The notes under the pieces: generated by a model
The model's input: the letters and a program-made list of their open reading frames with translations, nothing else
Database searches by the model: none
What the model was told of the DNA's origin: nothing
Shown: piece after piece, positions 12,554 to 56,546 of the stretch
How positions within the stretch are numbered: the stretch's first letter is position 1
How the letters are laid out: each line of letters opens with the position of its first letter
Source of the DNA: Micromonospora violae
GTDB lineage: Bacteria; Actinomycetota; Actinomycetes; Mycobacteriales; Micromonosporaceae
DNA length: 64,000 nucleotides
Direction of reading: 5' to 3'
Assembly (NCBI RefSeq): GCF_004217135.1
Contig: NZ_SHKK01000001.1
Location: 3,596,001-3,660,000, forward strand
Program-made: the position numbers and the translations under genes

Positions 12554-12697
12554 CAAACCCGACAAACCACCCGCCCGACGTGGTTGGCAAACCCGACACC
12601 GCGGGCACCGCGGGATGATCGACTCGCGTTTCAGGAAAACGCGGTATCCCACTGCCCGCAACACCCCGACATCCTGAAACCCGAGTCGATCACGCCC
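12554..12697. repeat. Palindrome-bearing repeat, copy 1
   Basis: First copy of a roughly 145-bp direct repeat with a 256-bp period. Its right half is an inverted repeat: GATCGACTCGCGTTTCAGGA (12617-12636) and its complement at 12672-12691, with 19 of 20 positions pairing. The left half starts CAAACCCGACAAACCACC. Confidence 0.85.
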
Positions 12698-12809: not shown

Positions 12810-12954
12810 CAAACCCGACAAACCACCGGCCCGCCGTGGTTGGCGGACCCGACACGGCGGACACAGCGGCGTGATCGACTCGCGTTTCAGGAAAACGCGG
12901 GGTCCCGATGCCAGGGACACCCCGACATCATGAAAACCCGAGTCGATCACGCCC
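12810..12954. repeat. Palindrome-bearing repeat, copy 2
   Basis: Second copy, aligned to copy 1 with substitutions and a 1-bp indel. The arms are 12873-12892 and 12928-12948. A further partial piece (GACACCCCGACATCACGGGATC) follows at about 12967, just before the uvrC stop. Confidence 0.85.
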
Positions 12955-21609: not shown

Positions 21610-21730
21610 CCCCCACCCACCCCGACCCACCCAACCCCGAAACCGGATCACCAACCGTCGACCAAGCACCACCAAGCCCAACAACCCCGTCGGCGGGCGG
21701 CGGCACGCCCCGCGCGACCCGGACCACGAC

Positions 21731-21806
21731 GGGGCGGGGGCCCGCCGCGCCCGGCGCAGGGATCAAGCCTGACCGCCCGGAGCCGGGCGCGGCGGGCCCC
21801 CGCCCC
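21731..21806. repeat. Conserved-loop hairpin, copy 1 (probable bidirectional terminator)
   Basis: A perfect 25-bp stem (21731-21755 with 21782-21806) around a 26-nt loop that starts GCAGGGATCAAGCCTGACC. The loop itself can form a 4-bp CAGG/CCTG helix around GATCAAG. It lies between the convergent MBL hydrolase and DedA genes, 40 bp from the DedA stop. The same loop, with one substitution, recurs at 53775-53800 inside a different stem. Confidence 0.85.
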
Positions 21807-21846
21807 CCACCGCAACCCGGCCCCGACCCCCGCAACAAACCAAACC

Positions 21847-22455
21847 TCAGCCAACGACAGCGAACAACCGCCGCCGCAAACCCAGCAGCACGCCAGCCGC
21901 CAGCACCAGCCCGACTCCCATGGTGACCAGCAGCGGGCTGGGGTGGCCCGGCAGCAGCCCGGCCACCGACCGGGAGGCGGTGCCCAGGACGAGGTAGAGA
22001 CCGGCCCAGGCGGCCGCGCCGAGGGCCGCGCAGCCGAGAAATCGGCGGTACGACATCCGCAGCCCGCCGGCGGCCAGTGGCAGCAGCGCGTTGAAGACGG
22101 GCAGGAACGGGGCGACGACCATCATCCGACCGCCGCCGCGGCGCAGGATTCCCTCCGCCGCTGTCCAGCGGGTCTCGCCGATCCAGCCGCCGACGCGACT
22201 GTGCCGCAGTCGGTCGGCGTAGCGACGGCCGACCAGGAAGCTCAGCGACCAGCCGGCCAGGCAGCCGACCAGCACCGCGGTGAAGGTGGCCAGCCCGGTG
22301 GTGGGGCGGCCGACCCCGACGGCGGCGAGGATCGCGACGTCGCCGGGGATGAGGACACCCAGCAGGGGTACGGCGTCGAAGAGCATGACGAGCCCGAGCG
22401 CACCCATCAGCAGCAGAACCGGTAGTTCTCCGATCTGGGTCAGCCATTGCGTCAT
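21847..22455 (-). CDS. DedA-family membrane protein, divergent
   Basis: A 202-residue integral membrane protein of the DedA/VTT family; members flip or sense undecaprenyl phosphate and other lipids. The N-terminal re-entrant segment is recognisable (LLGVLIPGDVAILAAV). In the second half, where the family normally has GRF-P-x-R, this protein reads APFLPVFNALLPLAAGG, so both conserved arginines are absent. About five membrane segments can be drawn. It lies 101 bp after the methyltransferase on the same strand. Confidence 0.83.
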   Translation of the reverse strand: MTQWLTQIGELPVLLLMGALGLVMLFDAVPLLGVLIPGDVAILAAVGVGRPTTGLATFTAVLVGCLAGWSLSFLVGRRYADRLRHSRVGGWIGETRWTAAEGILRRGGGRMMVVAPFLPVFNALLPLAAGGLRMSYRRFLGCAALGAAAWAGLYLVLGTASRSVAGLLPGHPSPLLVTMGVGLVLAAGVLLGLRRRLFAVVG

Positions 22456-53257: not shown

Positions 53258-53605
53258 ATGAGCAGAAGCGACGATGGCCGCGACACCTACCGGGAGTTCA
53301 CCGAGGCGGTGAACATGAAACCCGGTGAGCTGTCCACCTGGCTGGAGACCGACGAGTCGAAGCAGGTCGGCTGGCACAAGGGCGGTCGTACGGGTGGTGG
53401 CGAGTCCGTCGGGCACGAATCCGGTCGGAAGATCATCAACCTGCTCCGCCGCAAACGCGGTGACCTGTCCGAGGGCGACTACCAGCACATGCGCAAGGTC
53501 GTCGGCTACGTACGCCGGCACATGGCGCAGCGCCCCTCCGGCAACGTCCGCGACACCAAGTGGCGCTGGTCCCTCATGAACTGGGGCCACGACCCCCTCA
53601 AGTAA
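53258..53605 (+). CDS. DUF3140 domain protein
   Basis: A 115-residue basic protein. The order of blocks fits DUF3140: FTEAVNMKPGELSTWLETDESKQVG is spread over the first third, then ESVGHESGRKIINLLRRK, DLSEGDYQHMRKVVGYVRRH and a C-terminal DTKWRWSLMNWGHDP. A similar domain occurs with DNA-binding and plasmid-related proteins; function is unknown. A TAGCCG sequence lies 6 bp before the ATG, a weak match to a leaderless -10 box. Confidence 0.85.
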   Translation: MSRSDDGRDTYREFTEAVNMKPGELSTWLETDESKQVGWHKGGRTGGGESVGHESGRKIINLLRRKRGDLSEGDYQHMRKVVGYVRRHMAQRPSGNVRDTKWRWSLMNWGHDPLK

Positions 53606-53620
53606 CCACCACCGAGCCAA

Positions 53621-53750
53621 ACCAGATCACGCCCGCACGCCGTCGGCCGCAACCAGCATGACCGGATCCAACCCTCACTGCGACGGCCGCGACCTGCATG
53701 ACCAGATCACACCCCCACGGCGACGGCCGCGACCAGATCGACCGGGTCAG
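53621..53750. repeat. 40-bp tandem repeat
   Basis: Two full units (53641-53680 and 53681-53720) and partial units on both sides (53621-53640 and 53721-53750). Each full unit runs CGACGGCCGCGACC, then CATGACC, GATC and a C-rich end. It fills the spacer after the DUF3140 gene. Confidence 0.85.
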
Positions 53751-53824
53751 GGTTTCCGGGGCAGCCCGACCCGCGCAGGGATCAAGCCTGACCGCCCGAA
53801 GCGGGTCGGGCTGCCCCGGAAACC
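53751..53824. repeat. Conserved-loop hairpin, copy 2 (probable bidirectional terminator)
   Basis: A perfect 24-bp stem (53751-53774 with 53801-53824) around a 26-nt loop (53775-53800) equal to the loop at 21756-21781 except for one base. It lies 23 bp past the polA stop in a convergent spacer. The stem sequence is unrelated to that of copy 1. Confidence 0.85.
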
Positions 53825-53846
53825 CCCCACCGAAACCAACCAGAAA

Positions 53847-56546
53847 TCAGTGATCAGCGCTGTTCCAGTCCCGGCCCAGACCGACCGACACCTCCAGCGG
53901 CACCGACAGCGGGTACGCCCCGCCCATCTCCCGCCGGACCAGCGCCTCCACCGCCTCCCGCTCACCCGGGGCGACCTCGAAGACCAACTCGTCGTGCACC
54001 TGCAACAGCATCCGTGAGCGCAGACCGGCCTCGCCGAGCGCGGTGTCGACGTGCAGCATGGCCACCTTGATGATGTCGGCGGCGGAACCCTGGATGGGGG
54101 CGTTGAGCGCCATCCGCTCGGCGATGTCACGGCGCTGCCGGTTGTCGCTGACCAGGTCGGGGAGGTAACGCCGGCGACCCAGGATGGTCGAGGTGTAGCC
54201 GTCCTGACGGGCCCTTGCGACCACCTGCTGGAGGTAGTCGCGCACCCCGCCGAAGCCGGCGAAGTAGTTCTCCATCAGCCCGCGCGCCTCTTCGGTACTG
54301 ATGCTGAGCTGCTGGGACAGGCCGAAGGCGCTGAGCCCGTACGCCAGACCGTAGTTCATTGCCTTGATCTTGCGGCGCTGGTCGGGGGTGACCTCGTCGA
54401 GTGGCACCCCGAAGACCGACGAGGCGGTGGCGGCGTGGAAGTCCGCGCCGGAGTTGAACGCGTCGATCAGCGCGTCGTCCGAGCTGAGGTGCGCCATGAT
54501 GCGCATCTCGATCTGGCTGTAGTCGGCGGTGAGCAGGCACTCGTAGCCCTCCCCCACCACGAAGGCCCGCCGGATGCGACGGCCCTCCTCGGTGCGGATC
54601 GGGATGTTCTGCAGGTTCGGCTCGGTGGAGGAGAGCCGACCGGTGGCCGCCACCGTCTGGTTGAAGGTGGTGTGGATCCGACCGTCGTCGGAGACCGACT
54701 TGAGCAGCCCGTCGACTGTCGACTTGAGCTTGGCCACGTCCCGGTGGCGCAGCAGGTGGGCCAACACCGCATGCGGCTGCTGCGCGTAGAGCCACTGCAG
54801 GGCGTCGGCGTCGGTGGTGTAACCCGTCTTGATCTTCTTGGTCTTCGGCAGACCCAGCTCGGTGAAGAGGATCTCCTGCAACTGCTTGGGTGAGCCGAGG
54901 TTGAACTCCCGACCCACCGCCTCGTACGCCCCCTGCGCGGCGGCCTTCACCTCGGCGGCGAAGTGGGCCTCCAGCTCGGACAGGTAGTCGGTGTCGGCGG
55001 CGATGCCGGTGCTCTCCATGGTGGCCAGCACCCGCATCAACGGCAGCTCCACGCCGGCCATCAGCCGGGCGGACTGCTCGCCGTCGCGGGACAGCTCGGC
55101 GTCGATCGCGTCGGCCAGGTCGAGCGTGGCCCGGGCCTGCAGCATCAGGTTCTGCTCGGCCACCCCTTCGTCGCCGAGCCCGTCGAGGGTGAGCTGGCCG
55201 GACTCCGGGACGTCGACCCGCAGCTCCCGGTGCAGGTAGCGCAGCGCCAGGTCGGTCAGGTCGTAGGACCGCTGGTCGGGGCGGGCCAGGTACGCGGCGA
55301 TCTGGGTGTCGCGGACGATTCCGGTCAGCTGCCAGCCGTGCGCCGCGCAGGCCAGCACGGCCGGCTTGCTGTCGTGCAGCACCTTGGGGCGCTGCGCGTC
55401 GGCCAACCAGCCGGCCAGGGCGCCCTCGTCGGTCGGGTCGAGCCGCGCCGGGTCGACCCAGGCCGCCGCGCCACCGGCGGTGGCCAGCGCGAGACCGGTG
55501 ATCGAGGCGGTGTGCCGGCGGTTGGGGCCGGTGTCGAGTTTGACCGCCAGCCCGACCGGGGTGCCGGTCGGGACGTGCGCGCTCAGCCATCCGGCCAACG
55601 CGCCGGGCTCGGTGAGCACCTCGCCAGCGAGGTCGAAACCGGACTCGGCCTCCGGCTCGACCGCCTCCAGGTACTGGTAGAGCCGGTCGCGCAGGATGCG
55701 GAACTCCAGGGTGTCGAAGACCTGGTGCACCGCCTCCCGGTCCCAGCCCGTCCAGCGGGTGTCCTCCGGGCGCAGCGGCAGCTCCAGGTCGGCGATCAGG
55801 CGGTTGATCTCGTAGTTGCGGATCACGTCGGCGAGCCGCTCGCGCAGGCTGTCGCCGGCCTTGCCCTTGATCTCGTCGGCTCGGGCGATCACGCCCTCCA
55901 CCCCGCCGTACGTGGTGATCCACTTGGCGGCGGTCTTCGGGCCGACGCCCGGGATGCCGGGCAGGTTGTCGCTGGTCTCGCCGACCAGCGCGGCGAGGTC
56001 GCGGTACTGCTGGGGCGCGACGCCGTACTTCGCCTCGATCGCGGCCGGGTCCATCCGGGCCAGGTCGGAGACGCCCTTGCGCGGGTAGAGGACGGTGATC
56101 TGGTCGTCGACCAGCTGGAACGCGTCGCGGTCACCGCTGCTGATCAGCACCGACATGCCCTGGTCGCGGGCCTGGCAGGCGAGCGTGGCGATCACGTCGT
56201 CGGCCTCGAAGCCCTCTTTCTCGACCACCGGGATCTGCAGCGCGGCCAGGACCTCCTTGACCAGGCTGACCTGACCCTTGAAGTCGGTCGGGGTCTCGCT
56301 GCGGCCGGCCTTGTACTCCGCGTACTTGTCGGTGCGGAAGGACCGGCGGGAGACGTCGAAGGCCACCACGATGTGGGTGGGCTGCTCGTCGCGCAGCACG
56401 TTGATCAGCATCGAGGTGAAGCCGTACACCGCGTTGGTCGGCTGCCCCGTCGTGGTGGAGAAGTTCTCCACCGGCAGGGCGAAGAACGCCCGGTATGCCA
56501 TGGAGTGTCCGTCGACGAGAAGAAGGCGCGGTGTCGTAGCTGTCAC
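53847..56546 (-). CDS. polA: DNA polymerase I
   Basis: Fills repair gaps and removes RNA primers. The 899-residue protein has an N-terminal 5'-nuclease (LLLVDGHSMAYRAFF, VVAFDVSRRSFR, LPGIPGVGPKTAAKW), a middle 3'-5' exonuclease-like domain without recognisable metal residues at ExoI (reads VGLAVKLDTGPN), and a polymerase domain with motif A TADYSQIEMRIMAHLS, the O helix RRKIKAMNYGLAYGLS and motif C VHDELVFEV. Loss of proofreading is usual in actinobacterial PolI. GTG at 56546 lies 7 bp after a damage-type -10 box. Confidence 0.97.
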   Translation of the reverse strand: MTATTPRLLLVDGHSMAYRAFFALPVENFSTTTGQPTNAVYGFTSMLINVLRDEQPTHIVVAFDVSRRSFRTDKYAEYKAGRSETPTDFKGQVSLVKEVLAALQIPVVEKEGFEADDVIATLACQARDQGMSVLISSGDRDAFQLVDDQITVLYPRKGVSDLARMDPAAIEAKYGVAPQQYRDLAALVGETSDNLPGIPGVGPKTAAKWITTYGGVEGVIARADEIKGKAGDSLRERLADVIRNYEINRLIADLELPLRPEDTRWTGWDREAVHQVFDTLEFRILRDRLYQYLEAVEPEAESGFDLAGEVLTEPGALAGWLSAHVPTGTPVGLAVKLDTGPNRRHTASITGLALATAGGAAAWVDPARLDPTDEGALAGWLADAQRPKVLHDSKPAVLACAAHGWQLTGIVRDTQIAAYLARPDQRSYDLTDLALRYLHRELRVDVPESGQLTLDGLGDEGVAEQNLMLQARATLDLADAIDAELSRDGEQSARLMAGVELPLMRVLATMESTGIAADTDYLSELEAHFAAEVKAAAQGAYEAVGREFNLGSPKQLQEILFTELGLPKTKKIKTGYTTDADALQWLYAQQPHAVLAHLLRHRDVAKLKSTVDGLLKSVSDDGRIHTTFNQTVAATGRLSSTEPNLQNIPIRTEEGRRIRRAFVVGEGYECLLTADYSQIEMRIMAHLSSDDALIDAFNSGADFHAATASSVFGVPLDEVTPDQRRKIKAMNYGLAYGLSAFGLSQQLSISTEEARGLMENYFAGFGGVRDYLQQVVARARQDGYTSTILGRRRYLPDLVSDNRQRRDIAERMALNAPIQGSAADIIKVAMLHVDTALGEAGLRSRMLLQVHDELVFEVAPGEREAVEALVRREMGGAYPLSVPLEVSVGLGRDWNSADH

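Follow-up and report, generated by a model that had tools for sequence, protein, structure and literature searches.

Conserved-loop hairpins of Micromonospora as candidates for a REP/RPE-like palindromic element dispersed in actinobacteria

In the main text of Di Nocera et al. (2013, PMC3733652) CGTC-tagged REPs are described as dispersed palindromes near ORF ends, located between convergent or unidirectional genes and often less than 20 bp from the stop codon. Some copies lie inside ORFs, the distribution is patchy, and each palindrome has a 5′ tag and a 3-nt tail, which is mostly CCA; the stems are of 8–9 bp, the loops are of 4–5 nt, and no dedicated transposase is known (PMC3733652). REP-type repeats have hitherto been sorted by such tags, stems and short loops, and the string ‘actinobact’ is absent from the main text of that paper (PMC3733652). 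Rickettsia palindromic elements (RPE) are, by their description, hairpin-forming repeats that are inserted in frame in coding genes and tolerated there. A further class is made of the GTAG REPs mobilised by RAYT, and RAYT recognition of REPs has polarity.

The element analysed here is like the CGTC-tagged REPs, as the main text presents them, in its place near 3′ ORF ends in convergent and unidirectional spacers, in its in-ORF copies and in its patchiness; the tag-like and CCA-like flanks enriched in Micromonospora recall their tag and tail. Unlike them, it has stems of 14–27 bp and a structured, conserved loop of 26 nt, and since these lengths lie outside the CGTC REP definition given there, we do not file it as a CGTC REP. 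The original prediction that no described family matches is to be qualified, in that the place, the tag-like and tail-like flanks and the in-gene insertions resemble REP/RPE. The likeness to RPE is the in-frame hairpin itself; however, in the present element the loop is fixed and the stem is freer, most loci are outside genes and the phylum is different. With the RAYT-mobilised GTAG REPs it shares a tag-like sequence 5′ of the hairpin on the strand that seems to matter, but its stems are long and variable and several carriers have no Y1_Tnp match (G047 and G048 have some). Like intrinsic terminators, it is a GC-rich hairpin often placed just past stops; unlike them, it has a conserved loop, in-gene copies, generally no T run, and a mismatch pattern on the other strand.

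The window is a stretch of 64,000 nucleotides of Micromonospora violae (contig NZ_SHKK01000001.1, positions 3,596,001 to 3,660,000), and it contains two hairpins (Table 1). The stem of copy 1 is without mismatch over 25 bp, as was predicted; that of copy 2 is perfect as well, but it is one pair longer than the predicted 24 bp. The single-base difference between the two 26-nt loops, the position of both copies in convergent spacers (by our gene calls) and the similar sequences to the right of the stems, CCACCGCAACC and CCACCGAAACC, are confirmed. A minus-strand stop is indeed near both stems, and its distances of 40 and 21 nt are close to the 23–40 bp given before. The loop 19-mer occurs twice in the window versus a mean of 0.01 in 100 shuffles, and the folding z-scores of the hairpins are −7.7 to −10.3. 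Chance or simple duplication is ruled out by these shuffles together with the 16 genome copies and the covariation described below. The two stems had been called unrelated, but for each of them there are similar stems elsewhere in the genus (GGGTTTCCGGGGCAGCCCGACCCGC-like and GGGnnnGGGGCGACCGTGCCCGGC-like); stems of no visible kinship around the same loop do occur between genera and between Trueperella copies.

Table 1. Features of the two hairpins and of the adjoining genes, in window coordinates.
Feature	Position	Strand	Basis
Copy 1 left flank, GGACCACGAC, tag-like (CGAC), 5′ of hairpin	21721..21730	+	flank motif count
Copy 1 5′ arm, 25 bp	21731..21755	+	perfect stem, folding
Copy 1 loop, 26 nt, conserved, GCAGGGATCAAGCCTGACCGCCCGGA	21756..21781	+	19-mer count, copies elsewhere in genome
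Copy 1 3′ arm, 25 bp	21782..21806	+	perfect stem, folding
Copy 1 right tail, CCACCGCAACCC	21807..21818	+	CCA and CCGCAACC counts over Micromonospora locus representatives
VTT domain gene adjoining copy 1	21847..22455	-	stop 40 nt from stem
Copy 2 left flank, GACCGGGTCA	53740..53749	+	sequence, flank motif count
Copy 2 5′ arm, 25 bp	53750..53774	+	perfect stem
Copy 2 loop, 26 nt, conserved; end GAA where copy 1 has GGA	53775..53800	+	loop comparison
Copy 2 3′ arm, 25 bp	53801..53825	+	perfect stem
Copy 2 right tail, CCCACCGAAACC	53826..53837	+	sequence, flank motif count
polA (DNA polymerase I) adjoining copy 2	53847..56501	-	stop 21 nt from stem

In the M. violae genome, a single contig of 7.14 Mb, the loop core occurs 16 times with an exact match over 19 nt. 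All 16 copies have a stem, which in 12 is without mismatch over the scored 18–25 bp and in 4 has one. All are at loci that are also present in other species, so the movement of the element seems slow. Fourteen of them are found at 3.62–6.48 Mb of the contig, perhaps the origin-proximal half, and the remaining two at 0.74 Mb. Few copies, broken stems or identity of the whole element had been named as signs of chance or recent duplication; we find instead 16 copies in the genome, stems kept in 156 of 161 unique hairpins, and stems that are not identical between loci.

Within the genus the loop core is present in 55 of 61 sampled genomes, with no match of the reversed-pattern control. The search across Micromonosporaceae proposed with the original prediction covered 300 genomes of 44 genera and gives a match in 155 genomes and 17 genera, one mismatch being allowed (the reversed pattern has 7 matches among the matches listed). 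In the class sample 5 of 394 genomes have a match, both by pattern and by an RNA model with which 13 candidates were scored per genome. The scan of genome contigs for the loop yields at least 120 loci. With at most two mismatches, carriers beyond the genus include, among the matches listed, Actinoplanes, Plantactinospora, Catenuloplanes and Hamadaea. Carriers beyond the family include Trueperella bonasi (8 copies), an Actinomycetaceae MAG (4) and genomes G164 (16) and G223 (2), and a MAG labelled only Actinomycetes has 7 copies, at the same threshold.

Carriers outside Micromonospora have an identical or nearly identical loop on a different stem, which ranges from GC-rich to AT-rich. With regard to the MITE criterion of conserved ends, the arms have no conservation between genera. 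Outside the family one of 24 scored stems is perfect, and weak stems occur at 7 further places. None of the Trueperella copies shown have a common stem except one tandem pair, and about half of their stems are short or unconvincing (L300, L305, L315 and one of L324). Five other genomes of the genus of G164 are without copies; in G424, of these five the nearest to G164 by msrB, the place of the three tandem copies of G164 is taken by a short spacer without the element. In the Actinomycetaceae MAG, AT-rich stems are seen at L057 (= L314), L299, L304 and L310. Inverted close pairs of copies, 0.2–1.5 kb apart (for example in L005, L009, G621, G629 and G590), have the order minus then plus among the matches listed, and close pairs in the same direction are also present (G164, G452, G456). 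At L009:2850-3075 several partial tandem copies of the right flank of the element (GGCGGTGGTTGCGGTGGG...) lie beside a full copy.

Stem lengths of the 156 scored hairpins have their mode at 24 bp, and most of the loops are of 26 nt; the other five of the 161 unique hairpins, found by their loop and poor in stem, are excluded from the mismatch count. In an alignment of 58 copies, out of 75 candidate sequences, 84.5% of the cells of the hairpin including the inner loop pairs are paired, versus at most 44.4% when the pairing is slid. The covariation check, also proposed originally, gives a score of 0.614 versus at most 0.168 slid and 0.147 shuffled, and 0 of 500 shuffles reach it. The stem changes in compensated pairs. 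The loop can fold to a small inner hairpin. One of its pairs is changed from C-G to G-C in 3 of 58 sequences (variants from Trueperella and G223), and another is non-standard in 23 of 58. Two more pairs of the inner hairpin read A·C on the GGGATCAAG strand, called here the + strand (58/58 and 48/58). These pairs are G·U on the other strand and, taken alone, would favour it.

Since most copies were gathered through an exact or near-exact loop match, only the polA and methyltransferase loci, which were found via their genes, serve to assess how conserved the loop is. Past polA, the spacer was read in all 61 genomes. The loop is present in 16 of them (12 exact, three with one mismatch and one with two) and missing in 45; the outer stem alone is found in two, arm fragments are seen by eye in a few, one contig ends after 49 nt, and the rest have no trace. 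The 16 copies have 0.024 differences per site in the loop, and 0.10 and 0.13 in the arms. In the polA genes of the same 16 genomes the values are 0.22 at third and 0.035 at first and second codon positions.

The PF02636 methyltransferase gene has one or two elements in 25 of 30 loci, with 40 loops, all in open frame, and none in the other 5; these loci are the best matches to a query carrying both inserts, so that 25/30 is not a prevalence. The loops are in frame in both orientations, and at site 1 of L245 the loop is reversed. Third codon positions of the loops give 0.000 at both sites versus 0.241 in a nearby stretch of 50 codons. For the two arms the third-position values at site 1 are 0.000 and 0.044; those at site 2 are 0.134 and 0.075. 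The loop is under nucleotide-level constraint both past a gene and inside a gene. The central claim of the original prediction, a conserved and putatively recognised loop on a stem constrained mainly in its pairing, is supported by the sequence tests. In L241 and L249 the methyltransferase gene has, next to a complete in-frame copy, partial duplications of the arms that code for repeats of GVSGEP-like peptides.

The element is present or absent at the same site between species, also in frame within the gene, and it is partially deleted in some methyltransferase relatives. A search with the RNA model and default filters over 91 loci taken by their flanking gene gives 56 matches, all with E ≤ 6e-13, and no match between 6e-13 and 1. 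At the polA and methyltransferase loci the copies are intact, truncated or absent, and no full-length degenerate copy is found.

The neighbour genes are diverse, polA being one example. The right neighbour ends towards the element in 36 of 48 locus representatives, and in 19 of these 36 the stem is at most 25 nt from the stop; a left-hand stop is equally close in 3 of 27. Of the 48, 19 are convergent, and the others are tandem (16 ‘- el -’ and 8 ‘+ el +’), divergent (2) or unclear (3). The gene calls come from a codon-usage script in which the methyltransferase ORF goes undetected, and the two copies within this ORF therefore enter the counts as intergenic. In Trueperella 5 of 8 copies clearly follow the past-stop rule; in the Actinomycetaceae MAG the L057 copy departs from it, being flanked by divergent genes.

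The flanks on the + strand are C-rich. Of 37 Micromonospora locus representatives, 19 have CG[TA]C at most 7 nt from the stem (2.07 expected, motif and windows being chosen after seeing the flanks), and 9 have exactly CGTC (0.65 expected, with windows chosen in the same way). On the other side, CCA occurs in the first 5 nt of the tail in 19 of the 37 (4.69 expected, for a motif likewise chosen after seeing the flanks), and CCGCAACC with at most one mismatch in 14 (1.67 expected). The GTAG tag is present in none of the 37, and inspection by eye shows it in no more than a few copies of Actinoplanes; a CGTC-type tag is not evident by eye in the Trueperella copies. No T run follows the stem in the flanks read by eye, except in L057 (TTTT on one side). 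Degenerate repeats (GACGGCCGCGACC...CATGACC) are seen by eye immediately to the left of copy 2, at 53600–53749 of the window.

The mismatches in the stems distinguish the two strands. Read on the GGGATCAAG strand, G·T and A·C mismatches are 45 to 7 in the genus (123 unique hairpins), 17 to 2 in other Micromonosporaceae (42 hairpins) and 13 to 4 outside the family (24 hairpins); the three sets are disjoint, and the genus set includes a few loci of the unplaced strain KJ-029. Counted as distinct locus events over all sets, the ratio is 45 to 8. By arrangement it is 13 to 2 at convergent and 25 to 3 at ‘- el -’ loci; the asymmetry is not visible in the small numbers of the ‘+ el +’ (3 to 2) and in-gene (1 to 1) loci. 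The mismatch pattern thus favours the + strand hairpin, which seems to be the working form and looks like the selected one. This strand is antisense to the gene which the element usually follows, which argues against an mRNA terminator.

Mutation bias was considered as a cause of the G·T excess. The polarised stem changes comprise 18 C>T, 4 G>A, 8 A>G and 3 T>C, with 27 unpolarised. In the flanks a C>T bias of this kind is not seen, the ratio of C>T to G>A being 0.74 and 0.81. A>G is favoured over T>C also in the left flank (2.18), which the ratio in the stem (8 to 3) does not exceed; the polarised counts therefore leave room for a strand-biased C>T mutation specific to the palindrome. An excess of G·A over C·T was dropped as evidence, since the ratio of C>A to G>T in the flanks, 1.8–1.9, matches it at least in part. 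An orientation with respect to the replication strand was also dropped, as the copies in 3.6–6.5 Mb of the contig are 7 to 7 by eye.

At about an even chance, we suggest that the hairpins belong to a REP/RPE-like palindromic element that is dispersed in actinobacteria and would be read through its loop by a trans-acting factor. The element would have a length of about 75–100 bp. Its Micromonospora form would begin with a short tag on the 5′ side, followed by an arm of some 24 bp, the structured loop of 26 nt, the other arm and a tail rich in C. Recognition would be via the apical loop of the + strand hairpin, in single-stranded or cruciform DNA, and the stem would serve only to present this loop. 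The recogniser may be a trans-acting protein common to the carriers, neither a Y1/RAYT transposase nor a reverse transcriptase. Insertion would tend to take place immediately after a stop codon, in the orientation in which the + strand is antisense to the gene ending there, and copies with a failed loop or stem would tend to be deleted, not left to decay. Of the three options offered originally, a terminator class with a protein-bound loop, a mobile hairpin and a structured RNA family, the mobile hairpin fits best. Against this stands the strong selection of the loop in place, which is not expected of purely selfish DNA, as well as the arm third positions at site 1 of the methyltransferase, which are also nearly invariant, and the stems outside the family, of which one of 24 scored is perfect. 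We hold as tentative and rather doubtful a more specific form, in which the palindromes are a mobile class identified by the apical loop alone. A factor that is neither Y1 nor reverse transcriptase would then read the + hairpin as single-stranded or cruciform DNA via the 26-nt structured loop, accept any self-complementary stem and enforce the loop at every site, even at synonymous in-gene positions, across actinobacterial orders.

Alternatively, the mRNA of the adjacent gene may end in the hairpin, with a protein binding the loop for termination, 3′-end protection or decay control. The place and orientation past the stop, with 19 of 36 stems within 25 nt and likewise 5 of 8 Trueperella copies, the diversity of neighbours such as polA, the loop pairs that are G·U in the mRNA sense and the conserved loop at polA all suit such a 3′-end RNA element. 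We nevertheless consider it unlikely: mismatches in the mRNA sense are mostly A·C and not G·U (25 to 3 at the ‘- el -’ tandem loci), copies within the ORF keep the loop equally conserved in both orientations, the flanks read have no T run except in L057, and the polA spacer is without the loop in 45 of 61 genomes. The terminator class of the original prediction is disfavoured by the same in-frame copies and missing T runs and by mismatches that favour the antisense strand.

That a + strand RNA hairpin halts antisense transcripts before they enter the gene from its 3′ end is improbable. The favoured strand is indeed antisense to the gene ending at the element, at convergent and ‘- el -’ loci alike, the element is often right at the gene end and the + strand flanks are C-rich, but the in-gene copies are in both orientations and the invariant loop is left unexplained. 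Equally improbable in our view is that a loop-bound factor shields the long palindrome from cutting or deletion, so that copies with a changed loop are lost and the loop is conserved without benefit to the host. This would agree with the finding of no full-length degenerate copy at the two gene-sampled loci, with the deletion derivatives at polA and in the methyltransferase gene and with a loop conserved past and inside genes; however, there is no candidate protector, and short loop-less palindromes persist (L207, L208). A bidirectional terminator fails for the tandem and in-gene copies.

For the mobile palindrome read through its loop, no mobilising enzyme was found among the candidates considered. 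Y1_Tnp (PF01797) has no match in the carriers G000 (the M. violae genome), G045, G164, G223 and G452–G455, and has matches in the carriers G047 and G048 and in the non-carriers G009 and G011. No reverse transcriptase above cut-off is present in the M. violae genome, G045, G047, G164, G223 and G453–G455; Trueperella G452 has one match below cut-off with an internal stop, and the carrier G048 has four. As several carriers are without both enzymes, neither RAYT/Y1 nor reverse transcriptase is supported as the mobiliser, although G048 has both. A common neighbour gene is not supported either, since the neighbours of distant carriers look varied (by eye, on partial translations). No fresh insertion with clean borders or target duplication was found; at the polA and G164/G424 sites the spacers diverge, so a target duplication is not readable there.

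A known RNA family is not supported: Rfam has 0 matches in the window at gathering score, and in 12 loci of the M. violae genome it finds only a tRNA; at a permissive threshold there are two weak miRNA matches. The tRNA genes are just two in these 12 loci, far from the hairpins. Likewise, a phage or plasmid origin is rejected, with 0 exact 20-mers in viral contigs; the matches in plasmids and phages have chance-level E-values (0.6–8), and the 15 16-mer matches in viral contigs are without stem and look like chance. A keyword and sequence search of titles and abstract starts in the open literature found no earlier description of the element; a 14-mer occurs in one silkworm microRNA paper, and its complement is not found.

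In this element the loop is the unit of identity, which is conserved over families while the stems are replaced, also at third codon positions in a gene. This conservation points to a widespread factor that would read hairpin loops strand-specifically. The system offers a handle on it, with a fixed bait, simple mutants, and carrier and non-carrier species in one genus, and bears on a testable question, namely what mobilises transposase-less REP-like repeats. Last, the window has another repeat: 12554–12682 and 12810–12938 are 129-nt direct repeats, 86% identical, which overlap an inverted repeat.
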